Part shown: one piece after another, positions 3,760 to 28,731 of the stretch | How the letters are laid out: each line of letters starts with the position of its first letter | Numbering within the stretch: position 1 is the stretch's first letter | From: an uncultured Alphaproteobacteria bacterium | GTDB taxonomy: Bacteria > Pseudomonadota > Alphaproteobacteria > HIMB59 > GCA-002718135 | Reading direction: 5' to 3' | Assembly: GCA_902602515.1 (NCBI GenBank) | Contig: CACKRG010000001.1 | Span: 248,001-312,000, forward strand | Length of the DNA: 64,000 nt | Position numbers and translations under genes: made by a program | The notes under the pieces: generated by a model | Database searches by the model: none | What the model saw: only the letters and a program-made list of their open reading frames with translations | Told to the model about the DNA's origin: nothing

Positions 3760-4641
3760 ATGTTTTCTAATAATAAAACCGGTTGGTTACTTTTATCACC
3801 AACAATTCTTATACTTTTTTTAGTTGGGCTAGTTCCTTTCTTTTATGTTTTATATGTTGGTTTTTTTAAATGGAATCCTCTTGCTGTTGATCCTTCAATG
3901 CAATTTGAGGGCTTTGGATATAATTACAGAGAGCTAATTTTTGATGAAGTTTTTTTAAGTTCAATTTGGCGTTCAATTAGATTTGCAGTTGTCACATTAT
4001 TTTTTGAATTAAGTTTAGGATTTTTGTTAGCTTTATCTTTATTAAGTTCTTTTCCGTTAAAATCTTTTTTCAGAGGTGTGCATACTTTACCTTTGGTAAT
4101 CGCACCAATAGTTGTTGGTTCAATATTTAAGTTATTTAGTGTTCAAGGATTAGGACCTCTGCCTCATTTTTTAAAAGATTTTTTTGGGTATACGCTAAAT
4201 TATGGTTTAAATGCTGATCAAGCTTTCTGGATGATTGTTATAATGGATATCTGGCATTGGACTCCATTTGTTACTTTAACATTACTTGCTGGGTTAAGTG
4301 CCCTCCCTCAAGATCCATATGAGTCAGCCAAAATTGATGGAGCAAATAATTTCCAAATATTTATCTATATAACTATTCCCATGATGGTGCCGGTTTTGAT
4401 AGTTGTTATTTTTATTAGATTAATGGACTCACTTAAGATTGTTGATGAAGTATGGATGCTCACTGGAGGTGGGCCAGGTTATGCAACAAGATTTACAGGC
4501 ATTCATATATGGAAAGAAGTTTTTGAAAAAAGATTTTATGGTTTTGGATCAGCTATGTCGATTTTATATTTATATATAACAATTGTCATTTGTTGGTTGC
4601 TTTATAGTGTAATGGTTTCGAGGGGGAAAAGTGAAGATTAG
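3760..4641 (+). CDS. ABC importer permease, MalF/UgpA type
   Basis: A 293-residue inner-membrane protein with six predicted hydrophobic segments. The EAA loop that docks the ATPase is seen near residue 190 ([21 protein letters not shown]). It starts with ATG directly after the T tract of the preceding terminator and has no free Shine-Dalgarno; no other in-frame start lies close, so this start is likely but unusual. It pairs with the permease at 4631-5485. No ATPase gene follows in this operon. Confidence 0.92.
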
Positions 4642-5485
4642 AAAAGTTATTGGAAAAATCAGTACTACAATTCTTTGGGCTATATTAACATTAATTACAT
4701 TATTCCCAATTTATTGGATGATTTTAGTCTCAACAAGAACACCGGTTGAATTATTTGGTAAGCCAGATTTGAGTCCTACATTTTTTCAAAAAATACATTG
4801 GAAAAATTTTACTAAACCTTTTATCGATGGAATTTATTCTGATTATCTCTTTAATTCAATTATTGTTGCTACTTCAAATGCTGCCTTAGTAACTGTATTA
4901 GCATTAATGGCCACGTATGCTCTATCCAGATTTAAATTACCTGGATCAGAAAGTATATTTTTTTGGACTATGACAAATAGAATGGCTCCACCTGCTGCAT
5001 TTATGTTGCCTTTGTTTTTATTGTTCTCAACTGTTTTTAAATTTGGCGATTTTACTCTATTCGATACAAAAATTGGATTAATATTATTATACTGTGTCTT
5101 TAATTTACCTTTTGCTATTTGGCTTTTAAAAGGAATTATTGATGGAATTCCAAAAGAATTAGACGAAGCCATGATAGTTGATGGTGCCAATTTATTTACA
5201 GTGCTTTGGAAATTAATAATACCTCTTGCAGCTCCTGGTATTGCTGTAACGTCACTACTTAGTTTTTTATTCGCGTGGAATGAATATTTATTAGCTTCAA
5301 CTCTTACTAGTGTTTATGCTAGAACAATTCCAACAGGTTTATCAGAATTTGTAACAACGACTGGTACAAATTGGGGAACTATGGCAGCTGTTGCATTAGT
5401 TTCAATGATACCTGCTTTAATCTTTTTATTTTTAGTACAAAGGTATATTGTAGCAGGATTAACATTTGGAGCAGTTAAAGGTTAA
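4631..5485 (+). CDS. ABC importer permease, MalG/UgpE type
   Basis: A 284-residue permease with six hydrophobic segments and an EAA loop near residue 180 ([22 protein letters not shown]). The start is GTG at 4631, with AGGGGG at 4621-4626, and overlaps the end of the first permease by 11 bp, so the two are translationally coupled. It forms the heterodimeric channel with its partner. Its ATPase is absent from the operon; the ATPases at 40465 and 45384 or genes outside the window must energise it. Confidence 0.92.
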
Positions 5486-5486
5486 A

Positions 5487-5666
5487 ATGAAAAAAAGAGG
5501 TTTTATTCCTATCGATACTAATTGGTTTGATAGACTCTTCATTGGAGTTATTAGTTTTGTTGCATTGCAATTATTTTGGATGCGCTTTTTAGAAAATATT
5601 CTATCAATTAATTTTGCTATGGGAATAGGTGTAGCTTGGATAATATTTGTTATTTGGAAAGGATAA
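5487..5666 (+). CDS. Small membrane protein, resembles the C-terminal part of DUF2160
   Basis: A 59-residue protein with two hydrophobic segments. Its start KKRGFIPIDTNWFDRLFIG resembles, from memory, the second half of DUF2160 proteins, which accompany GlpPQ-type permeases in rhizobial and rhodobacterial polyol ABC operons. I start it at ATG 5487, one base after the permease stop, with AAAGG at 5477-5481; a TTG at 5466 would add seven residues inside the permease gene. Known DUF2160 proteins are about 90 residues, so the first membrane segment is missing here. Role in the transporter is unknown. Confidence 0.7.
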   Translation: MKKRGFIPIDTNWFDRLFIGVISFVALQLFWMRFLENILSINFAMGIGVAWIIFVIWKG

Positions 5667-5669
5667 AAA

Positions 5670-6713
5670 ATGAAAGCTTTAGTACTAGAAAAACAATTAG
5701 AATTAAACTTACGTGACATTGATCTTCCAACTGAAGTTGGTCCTGATGATGTTAAAATTAAAATGCATACTGTTGGAATTTGTGGATCAGATATTCATTA
5801 TTATGAACACGGCAAAATTGGACAATGGCACGTTAATGCGCCAATGGTTTTAGGACACGAAGGATCAGGCACAGTAATTGCAGTAGGAGAAAATGAAAAA
5901 ATTTTAAAAGAAGGTGATAGAGTGTGTATTGAGCCTCAAGTTGTTAGTAAAAAATCAAAAGAGTATAAGCTAGGAATGTACAATTATGATCAGAAAGTAA
6001 AGTTTTGGGCAACTCCACCCATTCATGGTTGTCTTGCTCCAGAAGTAATTTTCCCAGGTGATATGGTATTTAAGATTCCTGATAATTTATCTTATGCTGA
6101 AGGAGCAATGGTTGAACCATTAGCAGTAGGTATGCAAGGTGTTACGAAAGCAAAAATAAAACCAGGTCAAATTGGATTGGTTATGGGTTGTGGACCTATT
6201 GGGCTAGTAACTGGTTTAGCTGCATTAGCTGGTGGTTGCTCAAAAGTTTATATTGCAGATATTCTCTCTGAAAAATTAAAAATGTGTGAACATTATCCTG
6301 ATTTAATTCCAGTTGATCTATCAAAAGAGAATTTATCTGAGAGAGTAATGGATGACACAAATGGTTGGGGTGTTGATCGTTTTTTTGAGTGTAGTGGTGC
6401 AGTTAAAGCATACGAAGCTATATTTTCTTGTTGTTCTCCAGGAGCGCATGTTGTGTTGATTGGAAATAATGCAGAACCTGTTCCAATGAATTGGGCAATC
6501 TTGTTTGCTAAAGGTTTAGAATATCAGACTGTTCATAGATATTCGCATCAGTATGAACCATCAATTAGATTATTGGGAAGTGGAAAAATTGATGTAAAAC
6601 CAATGATTACTCATACATTTAAATTTGAAGAAAGTGTTTTGGCTTTTGAAAGAGCTGCGGAACACAGACCTACAGATGTAAAACTTCAAATAAAAATAGA
6701 TGAAGAAAAATGA
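5670..6713 (+). CDS. Zinc-dependent polyol dehydrogenase, xylitol/sorbitol (L-iditol 2-) dehydrogenase-like
   Basis: A 347-residue medium-chain dehydrogenase. Catalytic zinc ligands Cys38, His63 and Glu64 (GHEGSG) are present, as is the NAD-binding GCGPIG motif near 175. The ATPPIHGC and VEPLAVGMQG segments match the sorbitol/xylitol dehydrogenase branch. The four cysteines of the structural zinc lobe are replaced (IEPQVVSKKSKEYKLGMYNY), so only the catalytic zinc is expected. It probably oxidises a polyol such as xylitol or sorbitol to the 2-ketose, which xylulokinase (9691-11175) could then phosphorylate. It is 3 nt after the small membrane protein gene and overlaps the next gene by 14 bp. 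Confidence 0.88.
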   Translation: MKALVLEKQLELNLRDIDLPTEVGPDDVKIKMHTVGICGSDIHYYEHGKIGQWHVNAPMVLGHEGSGTVIAVGENEKILKEGDRVCIEPQVVSKKSKEYKLGMYNYDQKVKFWATPPIHGCLAPEVIFPGDMVFKIPDNLSYAEGAMVEPLAVGMQGVTKAKIKPGQIGLVMGCGPIGLVTGLAALAGGCSKVYIADILSEKLKMCEHYPDLIPVDLSKENLSERVMDDTNGWGVDRFFECSGAVKAYEAIFSCCSPGAHVVLIGNNAEPVPMNWAILFAKGLEYQTVHRYSHQYEPSIRLLGSGKIDVKPMITHTFKFEESVLAFERAAEHRPTDVKLQIKIDEEK

Positions 6714-20831: not shown

Positions 20832-20897
20832 TTAATCTCTTATAGAATAAGCTACTACATCTAACTTTGCTTTATCAGTTCCAAGTTTTTCAGCTAT
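20832..20897 (-). pseudogene. Relic of an ammonium-transporter 3' end
   Basis: Read on the reverse strand this stretch encodes IAEKLGTDKAKLDVVAYSIRD then a stop. The end of the intact Amt (21361-22647) is EAEKLGTDKSEVGVMAYSIRD: 15 of 21 residues match, and about 48 of 66 bases by hand alignment. It has no start of its own and begins at the stop codon of the winged-helix gene. It is either the remnant of a tandem amt copy replaced by that gene, or a duplicated 3' end created when the gene was inserted. Confidence 0.75.
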
Positions 20898-21268
20898 TGA
20901 TTAACATTTGCTTTAATAAAATATGAGTGCTCTTTTTTTAACCAATTATTTATCATATCTGAAAAGTTATTTTCTAAAAAATAATTTTTAATTCTTTTAT
21001 CTTTTTTACTTTGAAATTTTTTAAATATTTTTTTATCTAATGCTTCATTCAATATAGACTGAATTGAAGATCTTGAACCTATTGATTTAGGGACATTCGC
21101 ACAAATTGTTTCAAAAGAGATTCCATCAAGATTGTGATTTTCATAGACTTCTAGAGAAACAACGTGATGAAGGATAGATTTAAAGAAAAACTTGTAAGAA
21201 TAATCATTGGAGAAATAACTTGAGTAAATATTTCTTTTTTTTTCTTTTATAATTTCAGTTTCAATCAT
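20894..21268 (-). CDS. Small winged-helix (MarR-like) DNA-binding protein
   Basis: A 124-residue protein. Residues about 48-105 (SFETICANVPKSIGSRSSIQSILNEALDKKIFKK, then KKDKRIKNYFL) look like a helix-turn-helix followed by a basic wing. It is similar in size and plan to the regulator at 41538-41924. It lies downstream of amt on the same strand, behind two hairpins, and is flanked by the duplicated amt 3' end. A role in nitrogen control is possible but unproven. Confidence 0.65.
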   Translation of the reverse strand: MIETEIIKEKKRNIYSSYFSNDYSYKFFFKSILHHVVSLEVYENHNLDGISFETICANVPKSIGSRSSIQSILNEALDKKIFKKFQSKKDKRIKNYFLENNFSDMINNWLKKEHSYFIKANVNQ

Positions 21269-21360: not shown

Positions 21361-22647
21361 TTAGTCTCTTATGCTGTAAGCCATTACACCTACCTCAGAC
21401 TTATCTGTTCCAAGTTTTTCTGCCTCTTCACTTATTCTTATTCCAAATAACATTTTCATTATGTACCAAATAATAAATGAAACGATGAAGACAAAAACAT
21501 TGATGGCTATAATTCCATAAAGTTGAGCTCCAAAACTTGCTGCACTATTAGAAATTGGAACTATTAATGTTCCAAATATTCCAGCAAAACCATGGACAGG
21601 TATTGCGCCTACAACATCATCAATCTTAAACGAAATTAAAAGTCTTGTACCATAGAACACAATTAAACCACCAACTGCACCAATAATTATTGCTAAGATC
21701 GGTGATGGAGCTAAGGGTTCTGCAGTTATTGCTACAAGACCACCCAGTGCGCCATTAAGCATCATTACAACATCAGTTTTACCAGTTACTAATCTTGAGA
21801 TTACTGCACATGCCATAACACCTGCACCAGCAGCTAAGTTTGTATTTATATAAATTGTTGCAACAGCAGTGACATCATCAAAAGTTCCCATAGCTAATTG
21901 AGATCCACCGTTGAATCCGAACCATCCGAGCCATAAAATAAAGACACCAAGAGTAGCTAGAGGGATTGATGAATTTGCGAAAGGTTCCATAGGAGCAGCT
22001 TCACCACTATCTGTGAAACGTCCTAGTCTAGGACCTAAAAGAATAGCACCAGCTAAAGCTGCAGCTGCACCTGCACTATGTACAAGTGTTGAACCAGCGA
22101 AGTCTGAGAAACCAGCTTCTGCTAAGTAACCTCCGCCCCACTGCCAACCCATTTCAATTGGATAAATGAAACCAGTTAAAAGAGCACAAAATATAAAGAA
22201 TGGCCAAATTTTAATTCTTTCAGCTAGTGTTCCAGATACAATTGAACAAGTTGTTGCACAAAATACCATCTGAAAGAACCAGTCAGAACCATCTGAATAA
22301 CCTGTATCAACGGCACTACCATCACTCCAAGGAATTGGAGATCCAATAAAGCCACCAGCAGGAATGCCGTAAGCCATATTATAACCTACTAACCAAAACA
22401 TTATACCTGCAATTGAATATAATCCTATGTTTTTAGCAGCAATTGTTGCTACACTTTTAGATGTAACAAGTCCTGATTCTAGCATTGCAAATCCTGCTGC
22501 CATCCACATTACTAAGAATCCAGATACTAGAAATAGAAATGTATTTAAAATGTATTGCACTTCTCCATCCACTTCTGCTCTAGCGTATGAGCTAAAGAGC
22601 AAGAAGACAGTCACAATGCTAATGAAATATATAGATTTTTTTAACAT
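21361..22647 (-). CDS. amt: Ammonium transporter (Amt/MEP/Rh family)
   Basis: A 428-residue membrane protein with a signal peptide (MLKKSIYFISIVTVFLLFSSYARA) and about 11 hydrophobic segments. Family blocks include WMAAGFAMLESGLV near residue 50, AGSTLVHSAGAAAALAGAILLGPR near 185, and GVFILWLGWFGFNGGS. It forms trimers in the inner membrane and takes up ammonium. The start at 22647 has a GGAGG site. Its leader contains two glutamine riboswitches, so expression should respond to cellular glutamine. A relic of a second copy's 3' end lies downstream. Confidence 0.97.
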   Translation of the reverse strand: MLKKSIYFISIVTVFLLFSSYARAEVDGEVQYILNTFLFLVSGFLVMWMAAGFAMLESGLVTSKSVATIAAKNIGLYSIAGIMFWLVGYNMAYGIPAGGFIGSPIPWSDGSAVDTGYSDGSDWFFQMVFCATTCSIVSGTLAERIKIWPFFIFCALLTGFIYPIEMGWQWGGGYLAEAGFSDFAGSTLVHSAGAAAALAGAILLGPRLGRFTDSGEAAPMEPFANSSIPLATLGVFILWLGWFGFNGGSQLAMGTFDDVTAVATIYINTNLAAGAGVMACAVISRLVTGKTDVVMMLNGALGGLVAITAEPLAPSPILAIIIGAVGGLIVFYGTRLLISFKIDDVVGAIPVHGFAGIFGTLIVPISNSAASFGAQLYGIIAINVFVFIVSFIIWYIMKMLFGIRISEEAEKLGTDKSEVGVMAYSIRD

Positions 22648-22673
22648 TAATCCTCCATTATAAATTTCACATT

Positions 22674-22696
22674 ACATGACTCACATTGAGACATGT
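22674..22696 (-). other. Leader hairpin in the amt 5' UTR, possible expression platform
   Basis: On the reverse strand ACATG-T-CTCA-ATG-TGAG-T-CATGT folds into a near-perfect stem with a 3-nt loop, 26 nt before the amt start and after the riboswitches. A competing pairing of CACAT with ATGTG is also possible, so it may switch access to the GGAGG site. No U run follows it, which argues for control of translation rather than termination. Confidence 0.4.
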
Positions 22697-22739
22697 GTTA
22701 CTTTTCATGCGTAGCTATGGAAATTAATTAATAAGATCC

Positions 22740-22790
22740 GCGTTCCTTCGGTTAAACCTACTTCCGATTTGCTTTTCAGCAAATTGAACG
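22740..22790 (-). promoter_or_regulatory. Glutamine riboswitch (glnA-type aptamer), gene-proximal copy
   Basis: On the reverse strand this reads CGTTCA, hairpin ATTTGC/GCAAAT, CGGAAGTA, short stem GGTT/AACC, CGAAGGAACGC. These conserved pieces, their order and the pairing of the first and last (CGTTC with GAACG) are those of the glnA class of glutamine riboswitches. It is the second of two tandem copies, 93 nt upstream of the amt start. Confidence 0.9.
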
Positions 22791-22807
22791 ATTTTATAAC
22801 TTTGCAT

Positions 22808-22858
22808 GCGTTCCTTCGACTTTCGTCTACTTCCGTCATTCCACGAGAATGATGAACG
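22808..22858 (-). promoter_or_regulatory. Glutamine riboswitch (glnA-type aptamer), promoter-proximal copy
   Basis: On the reverse strand: CGTTCA, hairpin TCATTC/GAATGA, CGGAAGTA, stem GAC/GTC, CGAAGGAACGC. The single-stranded conserved blocks are identical to the other copy while both hairpin stems differ in sequence yet keep pairing, which is covariation within one locus and strong evidence for a structured RNA. 17 nt separate the two copies. Confidence 0.9.
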
Positions 22859-23007
22859 TAATTTCTGATATAGTTTATTAGTAATTTTTAATAAGTTTTT
22901 ATTTTTAAATATAGATATGCAAAAAACGCATACTACAAAAATATAAGGTATATAAACAAAATTTAATTATAATTTTATTAACAATTATTTTATTGTATCG
23001 TTAGTTA
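22859..23007. promoter_or_regulatory. Divergent promoter region of amt and the class II aldolase gene
   Basis: About 150 bp of very AT-rich DNA. The only structured element I see is TATGC-N7-GCATA at 22916-22932, a short inverted repeat that could be an operator. The rest of the 360-bp gap up to amt holds the riboswitches and leader hairpin. No small ORF with a ribosome site was found. Confidence 0.4.
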
Positions 23008-23652
23008 ATGAATAAAGAAGAATCCATTAGAAAAGAAATTCTAAAATCCTGCATAAAAATGGAGGATTTGAATTTAAATCAAGGCAAAACAGGTAATATT
23101 AGTCATCGATTTAAAGATGGAATGTTAATAACTCCATCAGCAAAAGATTATAAAAAAATAAAAAGTAAAGAGATTGTTTATATTACTAAAAATGGGAAAT
23201 TCATTGGAAAAAATAAGCCGTCGATAGAGTGGAGATTTCACCTACAAATATATAAAAAAATTCCGCATGTAAATTCGATAATCCATAACCACCCTATTTA
23301 TGGTACAGGTTTTTCTTTATTACAAAAAAAAATTGTAGCATATCATTATCTTATTGGATTATTTGGTGGAGTAGATGTTAGATGTTCAAGTTTTCATTTA
23401 CCGGGTTCACAAGAATTAGCAAATGCAATAGTTAAATCTTTAAGAAATAGAAAGGTTGCCTTGATTGCAAATCATGGAGTAGTTTCAATAGGTAAAAATC
23501 TAAATGATACTTTATATTTAGCTGAGCAATTTGAGGCAATGTGCAAACAAATTACAATAGCTAAAATAAACGGTAACCCAAAAAAAATATCTCTATTAGA
23601 TATGAAAAAAATTTTAATTGAAATTAAAAGCTATATAAATAAGAATGATTAG
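23008..23652 (+). CDS. Class II aldolase/adducin family protein (FucA/OtnC-like)
   Basis: A 214-residue zinc-dependent aldolase-fold protein. GKTGNIS near residue 28, KPSIEWRFH near 72 with the catalytic-type Glu, the metal ligands HNHP near 93 and a third His in IANHGVVSIG near 153 are all present. Members cleave L-fuculose 1-phosphate or L-ribulose 5-phosphate-like ketose phosphates, or decarboxylate 3-oxotetronate 4-phosphate. It is transcribed towards the RuBisCO-like operon and their stop codons overlap by 4 bp. A part in the same pathway, splitting or decarboxylating a sugar phosphate, is likely; the exact reaction is unknown. Confidence 0.85.
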   Translation: MNKEESIRKEILKSCIKMEDLNLNQGKTGNISHRFKDGMLITPSAKDYKKIKSKEIVYITKNGKFIGKNKPSIEWRFHLQIYKKIPHVNSIIHNHPIYGTGFSLLQKKIVAYHYLIGLFGGVDVRCSSFHLPGSQELANAIVKSLRNRKVALIANHGVVSIGKNLNDTLYLAEQFEAMCKQITIAKINGNPKKISLLDMKKILIEIKSYINKND

Positions 23653-24755
23653 TTATCTAATATGTTTCTTATATCATTAAGAACGTTTTTCATGTTGTCT
23701 TTATAACGAATTAATCCCCCACCTAATAAAAAAACGGCGTCTTTACCAAACATTAAGCTCATATCATTTGCAGTATTTATTGACATGCCACCACCAACAG
23801 CTGGGAAAATTTGCTTTCCAAAACCGTCACTATCTTTACACTTAGATGATATCGATAAGCATTGGTCTCTACTAAATTCAAACCTTCCTCCAGTATTTGG
23901 AAAAATTGACATATCAGCACCTATAATTCTTTGTAAAGTTCCATAATATACCCCATGTTCTATTCCGTGACTTTTAGATAAAACATGTCCACCAGAAAAA
24001 CTAGGATGAGATATAATAGGTAAGTCAAATTTTTTATTTTTTGAAATATGATGAACAAAATTATAACCTACCAAACTTGGTATTAACATGATTCCATCAA
24101 CGCCCGCACTTATAGCAAAATGGATATCTTCTATTATAGTTTCAAAATTACTTGATACATGAGGAAAATACATTGCTCTTTTGCCAGTTTCTTTGTTAGC
24201 TTTATTTACAGCTTTAGTTATTTTTTCTATTCGATCTCTAAAAGTTGAATAATTTTGATTACTTAAATTATGATCTTCTTTAATCATATCTGCTCCAGAA
24301 ATTATAAAATCATAAGCTAAAGACGCCAAGTCATCAGATGAAAGCCCTTGTGGTTTTAAGACTGAACATAAAATAGAATTGCTATGATTAATTATTTTTC
24401 TAATACCATTAATTCCAAACTTTGGTCCTGGGAAAATATTATTTAAAATAGAATTTAATTTTACATCAACAACTCTTACATTTTGATACATCGAAGTATT
24501 TCCATGAATTATATTAAACAATTGGTTAATTTCTAATCCAACACATTCATTAGAATAAGAAACTGTAATTAAAAATGATTGAATATCTTTTTTAATATAT
24601 TCAATTTTACCAACAATTTCATTTTTAATAAAATCATTGGGTACTATATCACTAGGGATTTCTACAGTATTTTCATGACAAATTGAATTGACTATATTTT
24701 TTGCATCTATTTCAGAGTCAATAAAAATTTCATATGTTACATTAAAGCGTTCCAA
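23649..24755 (-). CDS. RuBisCO-like protein (form IV large-subunit homologue)
   Basis: A 368-residue RuBisCO large-chain homologue starting LERFNVTYEI. The loop-1 lysine is in SVLKPQGLSS (Lys134), the carbamate and metal segment is KEDHNLSNQ (Lys159, Asp161, with His in place of the usual Glu), and phosphate-binding loops appear as VGGGMSINTA and LLGGGL. The loss of RuBisCO consensus around loop 6 (HPSFSGGHVLSKSHG) says it does not fix CO2. I choose TTG at 24755, one base after the transketolase stop and preceded by AGAGG; an upstream ATG at 24791 lies inside that gene. Known relatives act in methionine salvage or decarboxylate 3-oxo-isoapionate 4-phosphate in apiose breakdown. The context is sugar catabolism. 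Confidence 0.92.
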   Translation of the reverse strand: MERFNVTYEIFIDSEIDAKNIVNSICHENTVEIPSDIVPNDFIKNEIVGKIEYIKKDIQSFLITVSYSNECVGLEINQLFNIIHGNTSMYQNVRVVDVKLNSILNNIFPGPKFGINGIRKIINHSNSILCSVLKPQGLSSDDLASLAYDFIISGADMIKEDHNLSNQNYSTFRDRIEKITKAVNKANKETGKRAMYFPHVSSNFETIIEDIHFAISAGVDGIMLIPSLVGYNFVHHISKNKKFDLPIISHPSFSGGHVLSKSHGIEHGVYYGTLQRIIGADMSIFPNTGGRFEFSRDQCLSISSKCKDSDGFGKQIFPAVGGGMSINTANDMSLMFGKDAVFLLGGGLIRYKDNMKNVLNDIRNILDN

Positions 24756-24756
24756 A

Positions 24757-25758
24757 TTATAAAGCCTCTGCTTTAGATAATGAATGAACATCTTCTATTC
24801 TTGCTTCATTTAAATCTACTTCTTGAATATTCGTTTTGGTGTTAGTTAAATTTTCAATTGATTTAATTAATGCTAATGCATCTAAATTGTAATACCTAGA
24901 TAAATATCCTTTAGATCCACCATGAGCGTATGTGTCTTGAAGGCCAAGTTTAATTAATTTTTTTCCTATACCGTACTTTGATATTATATCTGAAACTATT
25001 GATCCGAGACCTCCATTAACTAAATGATTCTCCATTGAAATAATTCCAGATTTAGCTTCACTAATTAACGAAAGAAATAATTCCTCATTAATAGGTTTTA
25101 GGGTAGAGACATGGATATGCTTTATAGAAATTCCAAATTTCTTTAATGCGGATCGAGCACGAATTGCCTCTTCTGTACAAATACCAGATGTAAAGACTAA
25201 AATATCTTTACCCTCACTTAAAGTTCTTAGTTTGCCAATTTGTAGTGGGGTCTTAAATAACCTAGGAACAGATCCTCTTAGCATTCTGCAATAAACAGGG
25301 CCATCAATAGAGTCTGCAACTTCACAAATGCTTTCTACTTCTGTGGCATCCCCAGTTTCAATAACAGTCATATTAGGAAGAGTGCGCATTACTGATATGT
25401 CTTCTATAGCTTGGTGTGTCATTCCTCCTGGAGTTGTTATTCCGGGTAGAAAACCCATGATTCTTGCTTTTCTTCTGGGATAAGCAATTGAGGCAACTAA
25501 TTGATCATAAGGTCTTCTATAAGTAAATACACCAAAAGAATGTATAAAAGGTCTAAACCCAGCTAAACCTAGACCACCAGAAAAACTCATCATATTTTGT
25601 TCAGCCATACCCATAGAAATAAATTTATGTGGGTAACGATCTCTAAAGCCATCTATTTCACATGATGAATCTAAATCAGCTGAAATACATAAAATTTCTT
25701 CTTTATCTTTTGCAAAATCTTCAAATGCTTTTGCATAAGGTTTGTTAACTATTTCCAT
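24757..25758 (-). CDS. Transketolase, C-terminal half (pyrimidine-binding plus C-terminal domain)
   Basis: A 333-residue subunit covering the PP and C-terminal domains of transketolase. MGMAEQNMMSFSGGLGLAG near residue 47 holds the catalytic Glu that activates thiamine diphosphate, and GGMTHQAIEDIS near 112 is typical. It pairs with the N-terminal half encoded 1 bp upstream (25760-26680). Such split transketolases transfer two-carbon units between sugar phosphates; the AptA/AptB pair acts on apulose 4-phosphate. The RuBisCO-like gene follows directly. Confidence 0.92.
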   Translation of the reverse strand: MEIVNKPYAKAFEDFAKDKEEILCISADLDSSCEIDGFRDRYPHKFISMGMAEQNMMSFSGGLGLAGFRPFIHSFGVFTYRRPYDQLVASIAYPRRKARIMGFLPGITTPGGMTHQAIEDISVMRTLPNMTVIETGDATEVESICEVADSIDGPVYCRMLRGSVPRLFKTPLQIGKLRTLSEGKDILVFTSGICTEEAIRARSALKKFGISIKHIHVSTLKPINEELFLSLISEAKSGIISMENHLVNGGLGSIVSDIISKYGIGKKLIKLGLQDTYAHGGSKGYLSRYYNLDALALIKSIENLTNTKTNIQEVDLNEARIEDVHSLSKAEAL

Positions 25759-25759
25759 T

Positions 25760-26680
25760 TTAATATTCTATAGGACTAATTCCAAGTTCTGTTGAAATTT
25801 CATTGTTCATATTTATTCTCTCTTCTTCTGATTTAAATCTAACATAGTGAAGTTTTGGAAAACGTGTTTTTAGATATTCCATGCCTTGATATGGTGATGT
25901 TTTAGCAAGAATAATGAGTGGTTTATCTTTATGATTTATTTTTTTTGCTTTTTTGAGTTCGTCAAAGTTATGTCCATCAATTTCAGTAACTATTGCTCCA
26001 AATGATTCAATTTTATTTGCAATATCACCTATATCCATCACATCTTTCATCGCTCCATTAACTTGTTGTTCATTAACATCAACTATTGCCCATAAATTAT
26101 CGATTTTATGATGAACACATGTTTGTAAAGCTTCCCAAACCTGGCCCTCTTGTAATTCACCATCAGACATGAAGACACAAACCTCTCCAGTTTCTTTTTT
26201 AATTTTTCTTCCCATAGCTAAACCTGCGCCTGTTGATAATCCAACACCTAATGTTCCATTATGAACCTCCATTCCAGGAGAATGTTCAGCTCCAATCATT
26301 TCAACTGATGAGCCATCTTTATTAAACATATCTAGAGCTTCAGGTGCCATTCTTCCTACTTCAATTAATGTTGCATAAGCAACAAGGGCATAATGTGCTG
26401 GTGCAATTATTAACCTATCATAATTTGACTCAAAAGGGCCATTGTAACCAGCCCCTGTTATATAATTCTGATTATCTTTTGAAGGAACACCACTAAATTC
26501 CTCAGGTATCATGGGTTGAGTTGAATCTCCTAAATTCAATATGTCGTTATATAACCACGCCAGTTGCTCAGCAGCTGAACAAGCTTGACTCAAATAACCT
26601 CCATTATTTTTTATACAATGCTCAAAAACTCTCTTTCTAATCCCTTTTGCTACTTCATGATTTGTTTTTTTATTTTTCAT
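25760..26680 (-). CDS. Transketolase, N-terminal half (thiamine diphosphate-binding)
   Basis: A 306-residue subunit with the thiamine diphosphate motif GDGELQEGQVWEAL near residue 170 ending in VDVNEQQ, and AEHSPGMEVHNGTLGVGLSTG near 130. It forms the active enzyme with the next gene. The stop lies 1 bp before that gene and the start 2 bp after the aldolase-SDR stop, so all are one operon. Full-length transketolase elsewhere in the genome would do the pentose phosphate pathway; this pair is probably pathway-specific. Confidence 0.92.
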   Translation of the reverse strand: MKNKKTNHEVAKGIRKRVFEHCIKNNGGYLSQACSAAEQLAWLYNDILNLGDSTQPMIPEEFSGVPSKDNQNYITGAGYNGPFESNYDRLIIAPAHYALVAYATLIEVGRMAPEALDMFNKDGSSVEMIGAEHSPGMEVHNGTLGVGLSTGAGLAMGRKIKKETGEVCVFMSDGELQEGQVWEALQTCVHHKIDNLWAIVDVNEQQVNGAMKDVMDIGDIANKIESFGAIVTEIDGHNFDELKKAKKINHKDKPLIILAKTSPYQGMEYLKTRFPKLHYVRFKSEEERINMNNEISTELGISPIEY

Positions 26681-26682
26681 TT

Positions 26683-28731
26683 TTATCTAAGCGTCGCAGT
26701 TATATTTCCGCCATCTACAGTAAGAACATCTCCTGTTGTTTTTTTTGATTTAGCCAATAAAACAAATGCATCTGCAACATCACTTGGTTTAACTTCAATA
26801 TTTAATAAGTTATTTTTTAAATATTCAGATTTTCTAACTCCTCTTGCCTTTGCTCTTTCTTTTATAAAATTCTTACCTCCAAAATTTGTATTAACTCTAT
26901 CTGGATTGACACCATTTGCTCTAATATTATCTTTTGCATATTCTAATGTATATTGCCTCATCATAAATAAAGTTGCAGCTTTTGCGATACCATAAGGACC
27001 AAAATTTTTTCCAGGATTAATTGATTGTTTTGAAATATTATAAAGCAATAATCCACCAGTTTTTTGTTTTAAAAAAATCTTTACTGCATGTTGAGAAATA
27101 TGATGGTGAGACAAAAGATTAAGATCTAAACTTTTTTGCATTACATCTTTAGATATGCTAGCCATTTCACCCTGCCAAGGAGCGCCAGCATTACACACTA
27201 AAATATCAATACCTCCATAAATTTTTATGACTTCTTTTATAGTTTTGTTAAGTGATTTAGAATTAGCTACGTCACATTTAATAATTTTAGCAAATTTTTT
27301 AATACTAGATGGAGTGTTGTTTATATGATGTTGTTCCTTTTCTAGTAAAATTACCTCTGCTCCTTCATCATAAAAAGATTTTGCAGTTGATAGACCAATA
27401 TCTCCACACCCTCCACTTATTAAGACAACATTTCCGCTAAAATATTTCCTTTTTAGATTTTTAAGTTTAGCTTGCTCAAGAGACCAGTATTCCATTTTAA
27501 ATATTTCTTTTTCAGATATAGATTTAAATTTTCCAAATGACTCAGCTTGAGAAATGACATCTAATGTACATTCAGCTAAATCTGAGGCAATTGTAGCCTC
27601 TTTAGATGTTCTTCCAACCCCCACAATTCCTAATCCAGGTATTAATATTATTCTTGGATTAGTGTCGAGCATTATTGACCCTTTAAGAAATTTTTTATTT
27701 TTATTAAAATATTTAATGTAATTTTTTTTAAACGCATTGATAGAACTTGAAATTTTTTTGTCTAATTCTTTTAGCGAGATATTATCCAAATTTAAAATTA
27801 AAGGGTTTGGTTTTATTCTAATTACATGATCAGGAGTGACTGGTCCTCTTTGTGAAAAACTTTTTATATTCTTGTTATTTAAATAATTAAGAATTTTTTG
27901 GTTAGATCTTAAATTTAAAACCCATTTTGTATAATTATCGTCTATTTTACTTGATAAATTTTTCCTTAATAAAGGCAGGACATCTTCAGATTTAATTATA
28001 TTTTTTTTAATTTTTTTACTATTTTTTAACATCTTATTCGGATACTTTGAAAGAAATCTTTCCGCAATATTTACTAATTCTATCATACGATCATAGCTCT
28101 GTTTTGCAGTGGAACCAAAAGAAAAAATACCATGGTTTAGCAAGATTAAACCTATAACTTTATTATTTTTTTTGAAAATATTATTAGCTTTAATAGCAAG
28201 TTCAAAACCTGGTATTACATAAGGAACGATTCCAATTTTATTTCCAAAAACTTTTTTACAAATTTCAACATCATTTGGCTGATCAATAAGACTTAAGATT
28301 GAGTTAGCATGAGTATGATCAACATATTTATGTGGAATAAAAGCATGAAGTAATGTTTCAACGGAAGGGTTAGGTGCTTTTGAATCTAATAAATTTTTTC
28401 TTTGTAAGTTTACCATTGAAAAATCATCTAAAGTTTTTAAGTTAGCAGTTTCTAATAATGGATCTAGCTCTACAGCAGGCAAACCAGGATAATCTATATC
28501 TGACATATCCCAACCACTACCTTTCACATGCATAACTCTAATTTTTTTTCCAAAAATATTTTTAGTTTCTGTTTTTAAAGAGGTATTTCCACCTCCATGA
28601 AGAACTAATTTTTTTTCTCTTCCTAGAAGTTGAGTGGAATAAACTCTCAAAGCTAAATCTTTACTCAAACCAATTTTCTTATATTTTGCAATCAAATCAC
28701 TTGCCTCTTTTGAAGACCAATTATTTTTCAT
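26683..28731 (-). CDS. Bifunctional class II aldolase / short-chain dehydrogenase
   Basis: A 682-residue fusion of the rhamnulose-phosphate aldolase/lactaldehyde dehydrogenase type. Residues about 1-400 are a class II aldolase with HGGGNTSLK, the metal ligands DHTHANS and a third His in LLNHGIFSFG. Residues about 430-682 are an SDR with LISGGCGDIGLS, NAGAP and the catalytic YGIAKAA. In relatives the aldolase splits a ketose 1-phosphate and the SDR oxidises the aldehyde or a precursor sugar. Here it lies between a PfkB kinase and split transketolase, so a kinase-aldolase-oxidase sequence on one sugar is plausible. Confidence 0.9.
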   Translation of the reverse strand: MKNNWSSKEASDLIAKYKKIGLSKDLALRVYSTQLLGREKKLVLHGGGNTSLKTETKNIFGKKIRVMHVKGSGWDMSDIDYPGLPAVELDPLLETANLKTLDDFSMVNLQRKNLLDSKAPNPSVETLLHAFIPHKYVDHTHANSILSLIDQPNDVEICKKVFGNKIGIVPYVIPGFELAIKANNIFKKNNKVIGLILLNHGIFSFGSTAKQSYDRMIELVNIAERFLSKYPNKMLKNSKKIKKNIIKSEDVLPLLRKNLSSKIDDNYTKWVLNLRSNQKILNYLNNKNIKSFSQRGPVTPDHVIRIKPNPLILNLDNISLKELDKKISSSINAFKKNYIKYFNKNKKFLKGSIMLDTNPRIILIPGLGIVGVGRTSKEATIASDLAECTLDVISQAESFGKFKSISEKEIFKMEYWSLEQAKLKNLKRKYFSGNVVLISGGCGDIGLSTAKSFYDEGAEVILLEKEQHHINNTPSSIKKFAKIIKCDVANSKSLNKTIKEVIKIYGGIDILVCNAGAPWQGEMASISKDVMQKSLDLNLLSHHHISQHAVKIFLKQKTGGLLLYNISKQSINPGKNFGPYGIAKAATLFMMRQYTLEYAKDNIRANGVNPDRVNTNFGGKNFIKERAKARGVRKSEYLKNNLLNIEVKPSDVADAFVLLAKSKKTTGDVLTVDGGNITATLR

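Follow-up and report, generated by a model that had tools for sequence, protein, structure and literature searches.

Known glutamine-sensing systems

The GlnD-PII-GlnE/NtrBC cascade senses glutamine and controls both glnA and amt. RNAs of the glnA motif (Glutamine-I riboswitch, RF01739) have been reported from marine metagenomes, some of them in tandem, upstream from genes for PII, glutamine synthetase (GS), glutamate synthase and ammonium transporters (Weinberg, 2010; PMC2864571). According to a 2018 review, these gene associations occur solely in environmental sequences from uncultured strains, and glutamine riboswitches are confined to cyanobacteria (PMC6316151). The downstream-peptide motif (RF01704, the type 2 glutamine riboswitch) has a related core and ligand (PMC2864571, PMC6316151), and glutamine riboswitches have also been reported in Pelagibacter and OM43 phages (PMC9004378). 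A survey of tandem riboswitches published in 2022 classes glutamine tandems (157 doublets and 4 triplets) as pseudo-cooperative (PMC9481103).

The locus described here lies in a 64-kb stretch of DNA from an abundant, uncultured marine alphaproteobacterium, referred to below as the window. It does not represent a new riboswitch class, because amt-linked, partly tandem glnA-class RNAs were already known from marine metagenomes. Like the described Glutamine-I riboswitches, it matches the family model from end to end (53 positions), has all the conserved blocks and precedes a nitrogen gene; it differs from the cyanobacterial and environmental examples of the literature in belonging to the nitrogen-gene leaders of an alphaproteobacterial genus and in having a linker of 16–18 nt predicted to pair across the second aptamer. 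It differs from the downstream-peptide motif in that the gene downstream encodes a transporter rather than a short DUF4278 peptide.

Two aptamers in the leader of an ammonium transporter gene

A cmscan search of the window against all of Rfam yielded two matches to RF01739 (curated covariance-model cut-off, 35 bits), both full length (model positions 1–53 of 53; Table 1). No other Rfam family scored above its cut-off anywhere in the 64 kb, and there was no further RF01739 match and no RF01704 match even at E values of up to 0.1. The initial annotation had placed two glnA-class glutamine riboswitch units at this site and on this strand, and the search is clearly positive for both; the blocks it described as shared (CGTTCA, CGGAAGTA and CGAAGGAACGC) are indeed present in each unit. 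Its unit size of 51 nt needs adjustment: there are two units of similar size, with an Rfam match of 56 nt and a core of 50 nt in each. Alignment to the consensus identifies P1, P2 and P3, together with the conserved core CGGAAGUA and GAAGGAACG, in both aptamers. The two copies are not direct repeats at the sequence level (a repeat search found none), and their hairpins, as had been noted, differ in sequence yet pair. Many two-sided compensatory changes are found in the P2 and P3 stems of relatives' leaders, with covariation of P2 and P3 in aptamer 1 and of P2 in aptamer 2. Over 43 aligned leaders from three gene classes, the core blocks are invariant and P2/P3 covary. Membership of the RF01739 class suggests that both aptamers bind L-glutamine.

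Table 1. Features of the amt leader and its regulated gene (window coordinates)
Feature	Position	Strand	Evidence or sequence
Glutamine riboswitch aptamer 1 (RF01739)	22805..22860	-	cmscan 60.7 bits, E 6.3e-11
Aptamer 1 P1 core	22858-22809	-	CGTTC...GAACG
PX, linker strand (CATGC-AA-AGTTAT)	22796..22808	-	predicted to pair with 22706-22718
Glutamine riboswitch aptamer 2 (RF01739)	22737..22792	-	cmscan 59.2 bits, E 1.6e-10
Aptamer 2 P1 core	22790-22741	-	CGTTC...GAACG
Small hairpin PY (GGA..TTA/TAA..TCC), between aptamer 2 and PX	22719..22739	-	fold/alignment
PX, downstream strand (ATAGCT-AC-GCATG)	22706..22718	-	predicted to pair with 22796-22808
Hairpin PZ, between PX and ribosome-binding site	22674..22696	-	sequence variable, pairing kept
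Shine-Dalgarno GGAGG	22652..22656	-	sequence
Ammonium transporter (Amt), marine subtype, 428 aa, regulated gene	21361..22647	-	PF00909 326.5 bits; TIGR03644 575 bits (cut-off 514)

The tandem is located between divergent genes at 22647 and 23008. The gene it precedes is an ammonium transporter gene, as originally proposed, and matches both PF00909 and the 'marine subtype' model TIGR03644; its ATG start codon lies about 93 nt 3' of the aptamer 2 core, which places the pair in the 5' leader of a nitrogen-metabolism gene. An ORF of 124 aa directly downstream from amt (20894-21268, reverse strand), with no Pfam or NCBIfam match, is possibly part of the amt transcript. On the other side, positions 23008-28731 hold a sugar-acid-like cluster including a class II aldolase and a RuBisCO-like protein (PF00016); judged by eye, two of its ORFs resemble split transketolase subunits, and another a large aldolase/dehydrogenase fusion.

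A glutamine riboswitch regulon and its owner

In the assembly of the window's genome (1.43 Mb, 86.5% complete, 34 contigs), RF01739 units number five: two in the amt tandem, one in front of a second amt gene and two in a further tandem. This second amt gene, amt2, lies next to a divergently transcribed gene for a type III glutamine synthetase (L006:3038-4455 and 4575-5900). The further tandem precedes a CP_ATPgrasp_2/Alpha-E/transglutaminase-like operon of poorly understood function (L007:3870-7295, G000 contig C10), and this position suggests that the operon functions in the metabolism of nitrogen or of glutamine. A urease gene is located about 8 kb from it in the same genome, and urea genes have been linked with the domains of this operon in an earlier marine-metagenome study (PMC3597751). 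No PII match and no glnA tandem were found in the window's own genome, probably because it is incomplete.

Relatives were studied in a set of 121 genomes (own included), comprising 73 genomes of the riboswitch-bearing genus and 48 of a sister HIMB59-like family. RF01739 is present in 71 of the 73 genus genomes versus none of the 48 sister genomes, counts that were rechecked with laxer filters on a subset. The fetched loci provided 113 distinct riboswitch units, with downstream genes falling into three groups, and in this survey of leaders the tandem occurs genus-wide before amt, before glnA and before one other operon. All 42 glnA leaders are tandem; the amt leaders include 32 tandem and 4 single ones, the latter all belonging to amt2; the ATP-grasp operon has 32 tandem leaders, one of them at a contig end. 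The gene order glnB-riboswitch-glnA is strikingly regular, the riboswitch starting 43–45 nt after the glnB stop codon in 40/40 readable cases. The sister family includes a complete genome (1,410,127 bases), in which the glnB-glnA gap is 44 nt and has no riboswitch; the ATP-grasp gene is also found in this family, again with no riboswitch. Two genus loci (L137 in G017 and L191 in G053) carry duplicated regulated units, in which a pair of amt genes lie about 2 kb from each other and a separate tandem precedes each gene, and a third (G069 contig C1:460733-462894) is probably organized likewise.

Urease was detected in 45 of the 73 genus genomes, versus none in the sister family. Clade II ('Ca. 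Indicimonas') is the only AEGEAN169 clade for which urea use has been described, and it has up to two ammonium transporters (PMC11366302). Given this description, the urease distribution and the two amt genes, the riboswitch genus most likely corresponds to AEGEAN-169 clade II. Among 385 alphaproteobacteria sampled across the class, the element was found only in this genus and in one other family (f10), four genomes of which have a single unit; the three that were read (L195, L197, L198) precede the same ATP-grasp gene. None of the Pelagibacteraceae amt loci scanned has a glutamine riboswitch, so the element is not shared by SAR11 as a whole. Marine viral contigs commonly carry glutamine riboswitches (at least 120 stretches, L213-L292). 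A few are tandems that resemble the bacterial ones in having two RF01739-like units (IMG/VR L226, L231, L247, L269, L283, L284), but they have linkers of 6–9 nt that lack the CATGC/AGTTAT sequence and ribosome-binding-site hairpins directly after aptamer 2. The viral contigs contain no exact match to the PX linker GAAGGAACGCATGCNNNNNTTA, and leader-like DNA in phage records proved to be chance matches only.

Loss of the protein cascade

The initial annotation contrasted the riboswitch with the PII/NtrC control that would be the textbook expectation for amt. This expectation needs refinement, as textbook NtrC/GlnD control is unavailable to a genus that lacks RpoN, GlnD and GlnE and has an altered PII T-loop. 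The GlnD uridylyltransferase domain (PF08335) is found in 0/73 genus genomes versus 42/48 sister genomes (three of the 42 being weak matches only), and GlnE (PF03710) in 0/73 versus 38/48. RpoN (PF04552) is above cut-off in none of the 121 genomes, in either group. The genus genomes are incomplete (53–96%), but a count of 0/73 for two genes is not attributable to incompleteness. PII (PF00543) is kept in 55/73 genus genomes, with a T-loop like STGGIDPNDGYDDEFL in place of the ELYRGAEYVVDFL of the sister family; the RGAEY/ELYRGAEY motif is lost, with tyrosine still the usual residue at the aligned site (F in one case). The altered PII is seen beside riboswitch-controlled glnA, at loci such as L118-L193 and L209.

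In this genus, the protein cascade has apparently given way to sensing by RNA. The correlation between riboswitch gain and cascade loss is a single evolutionary contrast resting on two families. GlnD is retained in 3/4 genomes of f10, which fits, because the f10 riboswitch was found on neither glnA nor amt. In its fullest form, the proposal is that the genus replaced GlnD, GlnE, a uridylylatable PII and NtrC/RpoN by composite tandem riboswitches on glnA, amt and the CP_ATPgrasp operon, with aptamers joined by a helix enclosing the second and acting through a single platform; we give this even odds.

Linker and leader architecture

The aptamers are separated by a linker of 16–18 nt, whose sequence (CATGCAA-AGTTAT-TAAAT or a close variant) is conserved in each of the three gene classes. 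Its complement is conserved 3' of aptamer 2 (ATAGCT-A-GCATGA; ATAACT-AGA-GCATGA in glnA leaders), and the two are predicted to form a helix, PX, that would enclose aptamer 2, with the hairpin PY inside it. In 28 amt leaders, 99.3% of PX cells are paired; 9 of the 11 pairs are invariant and the others are changed on one side only. The support for PX is therefore two-sided conservation rather than covariation, which so nearly invariant a helix does not provide as proof of pairing. The helix forms in the minimum-energy structure when the window's leader is folded without constraints, and RNAalifold recovers it independently from the 28 amt leaders and, in part, from the 43 mixed leaders; in glnA leaders, it does not form in most folds with both aptamers forced.

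The 3' arm of PY, TTTCC (with AT), is complementary to both the Shine-Dalgarno sequence and the aptamer core GGAAGT. In PZ, 4/10 pairs have two-sided changes and 89.9% of cells are paired. The amt-leader structure as a whole has 8 pairs with two-sided changes, versus 4.1 in shuffles (0/500 as high), and slid versions of it have only 26–39% of cells paired. No intrinsic terminator or sigma-70 promoter was found in the leader. A conserved short ORF starting from the GCATGA of PX was considered and rejected, the reading frames being unrelated by eye.

Sign of the switch

The single-aptamer amt2 leaders give the clearest folding result. In the free state, the core GGAAGU pairs with a pyrimidine element of the leader (mean 0.92) and Shine-Dalgarno-leader pairing is low (0.11); it reaches 0.74 once the aptamer has formed. 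This pattern is seen in 4/4 leaders, including that of the window's own genome, and at most 1 in 150 shuffles per leader matches both measures. The folds clearly predict an OFF switch at amt2, with ammonium uptake lowered when glutamine is high.

The AUUUCC element of the tandem amt leader has three potential partners: the aptamer 2 core (pairing of 0.64 when P1 is forbidden), PY and the Shine-Dalgarno sequence. The Shine-Dalgarno sequence is slightly more open with the aptamers formed than in the free state (0.60 vs 0.46), and its opening energy is the same in both states in tandem leaders, so the folding of these leaders does not support OFF. The modelled folds are ambiguous as to the sign of the tandem. 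An anti-Shine-Dalgarno helix (UUUCCAU:AUGGAGG) was considered as a conserved general platform and rejected: it is present in most amt leaders but has no covariation, it is absent from L062, and the ATP-grasp leaders have no clear Shine-Dalgarno sequence.

The strongest rival reading is an ON switch activated by glutamine, as in gifB and downstream-peptide riboswitches. Glutamine would stabilize aptamer 2, PX and PY, thereby withdrawing UUUCC from the Shine-Dalgarno sequence and allowing translation. Consistent with this, pairing of the Shine-Dalgarno sequence with UUUCCAU in tandem amt leaders falls from 0.31 in the free state to 0.08 with both aptamers formed, while PX rises from 0.59 to 0.87, and the cyanobacterial glutamine riboswitches that have been tested are ON switches (PMC6316151). 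However, ammonium uptake and glnA driven by glutamine would be physiologically odd, the single amt2 leaders predict the opposite sign, and the element invoked is not conserved in L062, is unusable in ATP-grasp leaders and belongs to the helix that lacks covariation. We therefore regard an ON switch as rather unlikely, and repression at plentiful glutamine is somewhat favoured by physiology and by the amt2 folds.

A probable shared platform for the two aptamers

The second rival holds that the two aptamers are independent stacked riboswitches, each with its own platform, in line with the pseudo-cooperative class to which the 2022 survey assigns glutamine doublets. The space between the aptamers argues against this, as 16–18 nt leaves no room there for an expression platform, and the linker, besides being conserved, is complementary to the leader further downstream. 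The gap between the aptamers (18 nt in the window) contains neither a terminator-like site nor a Shine-Dalgarno sequence or ribosome-binding site, and the two aptamers therefore appear to share one platform, unlike the published class. This apparent anatomy, two homologous aptamers and one platform, is that of the cooperative tandem glycine riboswitch, from which the leader differs in aptamer class. Independent stacking is, in our judgement, improbable. It is extremely unlikely that the aptamers are relict or recognize a ligand other than glutamine, given the invariant core blocks and covarying stems across 43 leaders and three gene classes, two of which are nitrogen-assimilation genes.

The explanation that best accommodates the observed aptamers, covariation, regulon and gene losses, and that we consider highly probable overall, is a glutamine tandem with a shared platform, most likely OFF, within a regulon replacing GlnD/GlnE sensing. 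Both aptamers of the amt leader would bind L-glutamine and serve a single expression platform; pairing of linker and leader in PX would enclose aptamer 2, with aptamer 1 adjoining; and the ligand state would set the partner of AUUUCC, be it the aptamer core, PY or the Shine-Dalgarno sequence. At plentiful glutamine, ammonium uptake would most likely be repressed, and the regulon of amt, amt2, glnA and the CP_ATPgrasp operon would assume the glutamine-sensing role of the lost GlnD/GlnE cascade.

Implications for nitrogen control in marine bacteria

We found no named owner, in the open-licence literature, for the amt-, GS- and PII-linked marine riboswitches known since 2010, and no report there of an AEGEAN-169 regulon or of GlnD/GlnE loss. 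The published work found does not extend to the owner, its regulon, the composite tandem or the accompanying loss of protein sensors. At least part of those metagenomic riboswitches can now be assigned to a specific, abundant marine lineage, and the poorly understood CP_ATPgrasp/Alpha-E/transglutaminase operon is tied to glutamine status. The two groups offer a natural comparison, in which glutamine sensing relies on protein modification in one family and, apparently, on RNA in its sister, and the lineage makes it possible to ask how genome streamlining rebuilds nitrogen control.
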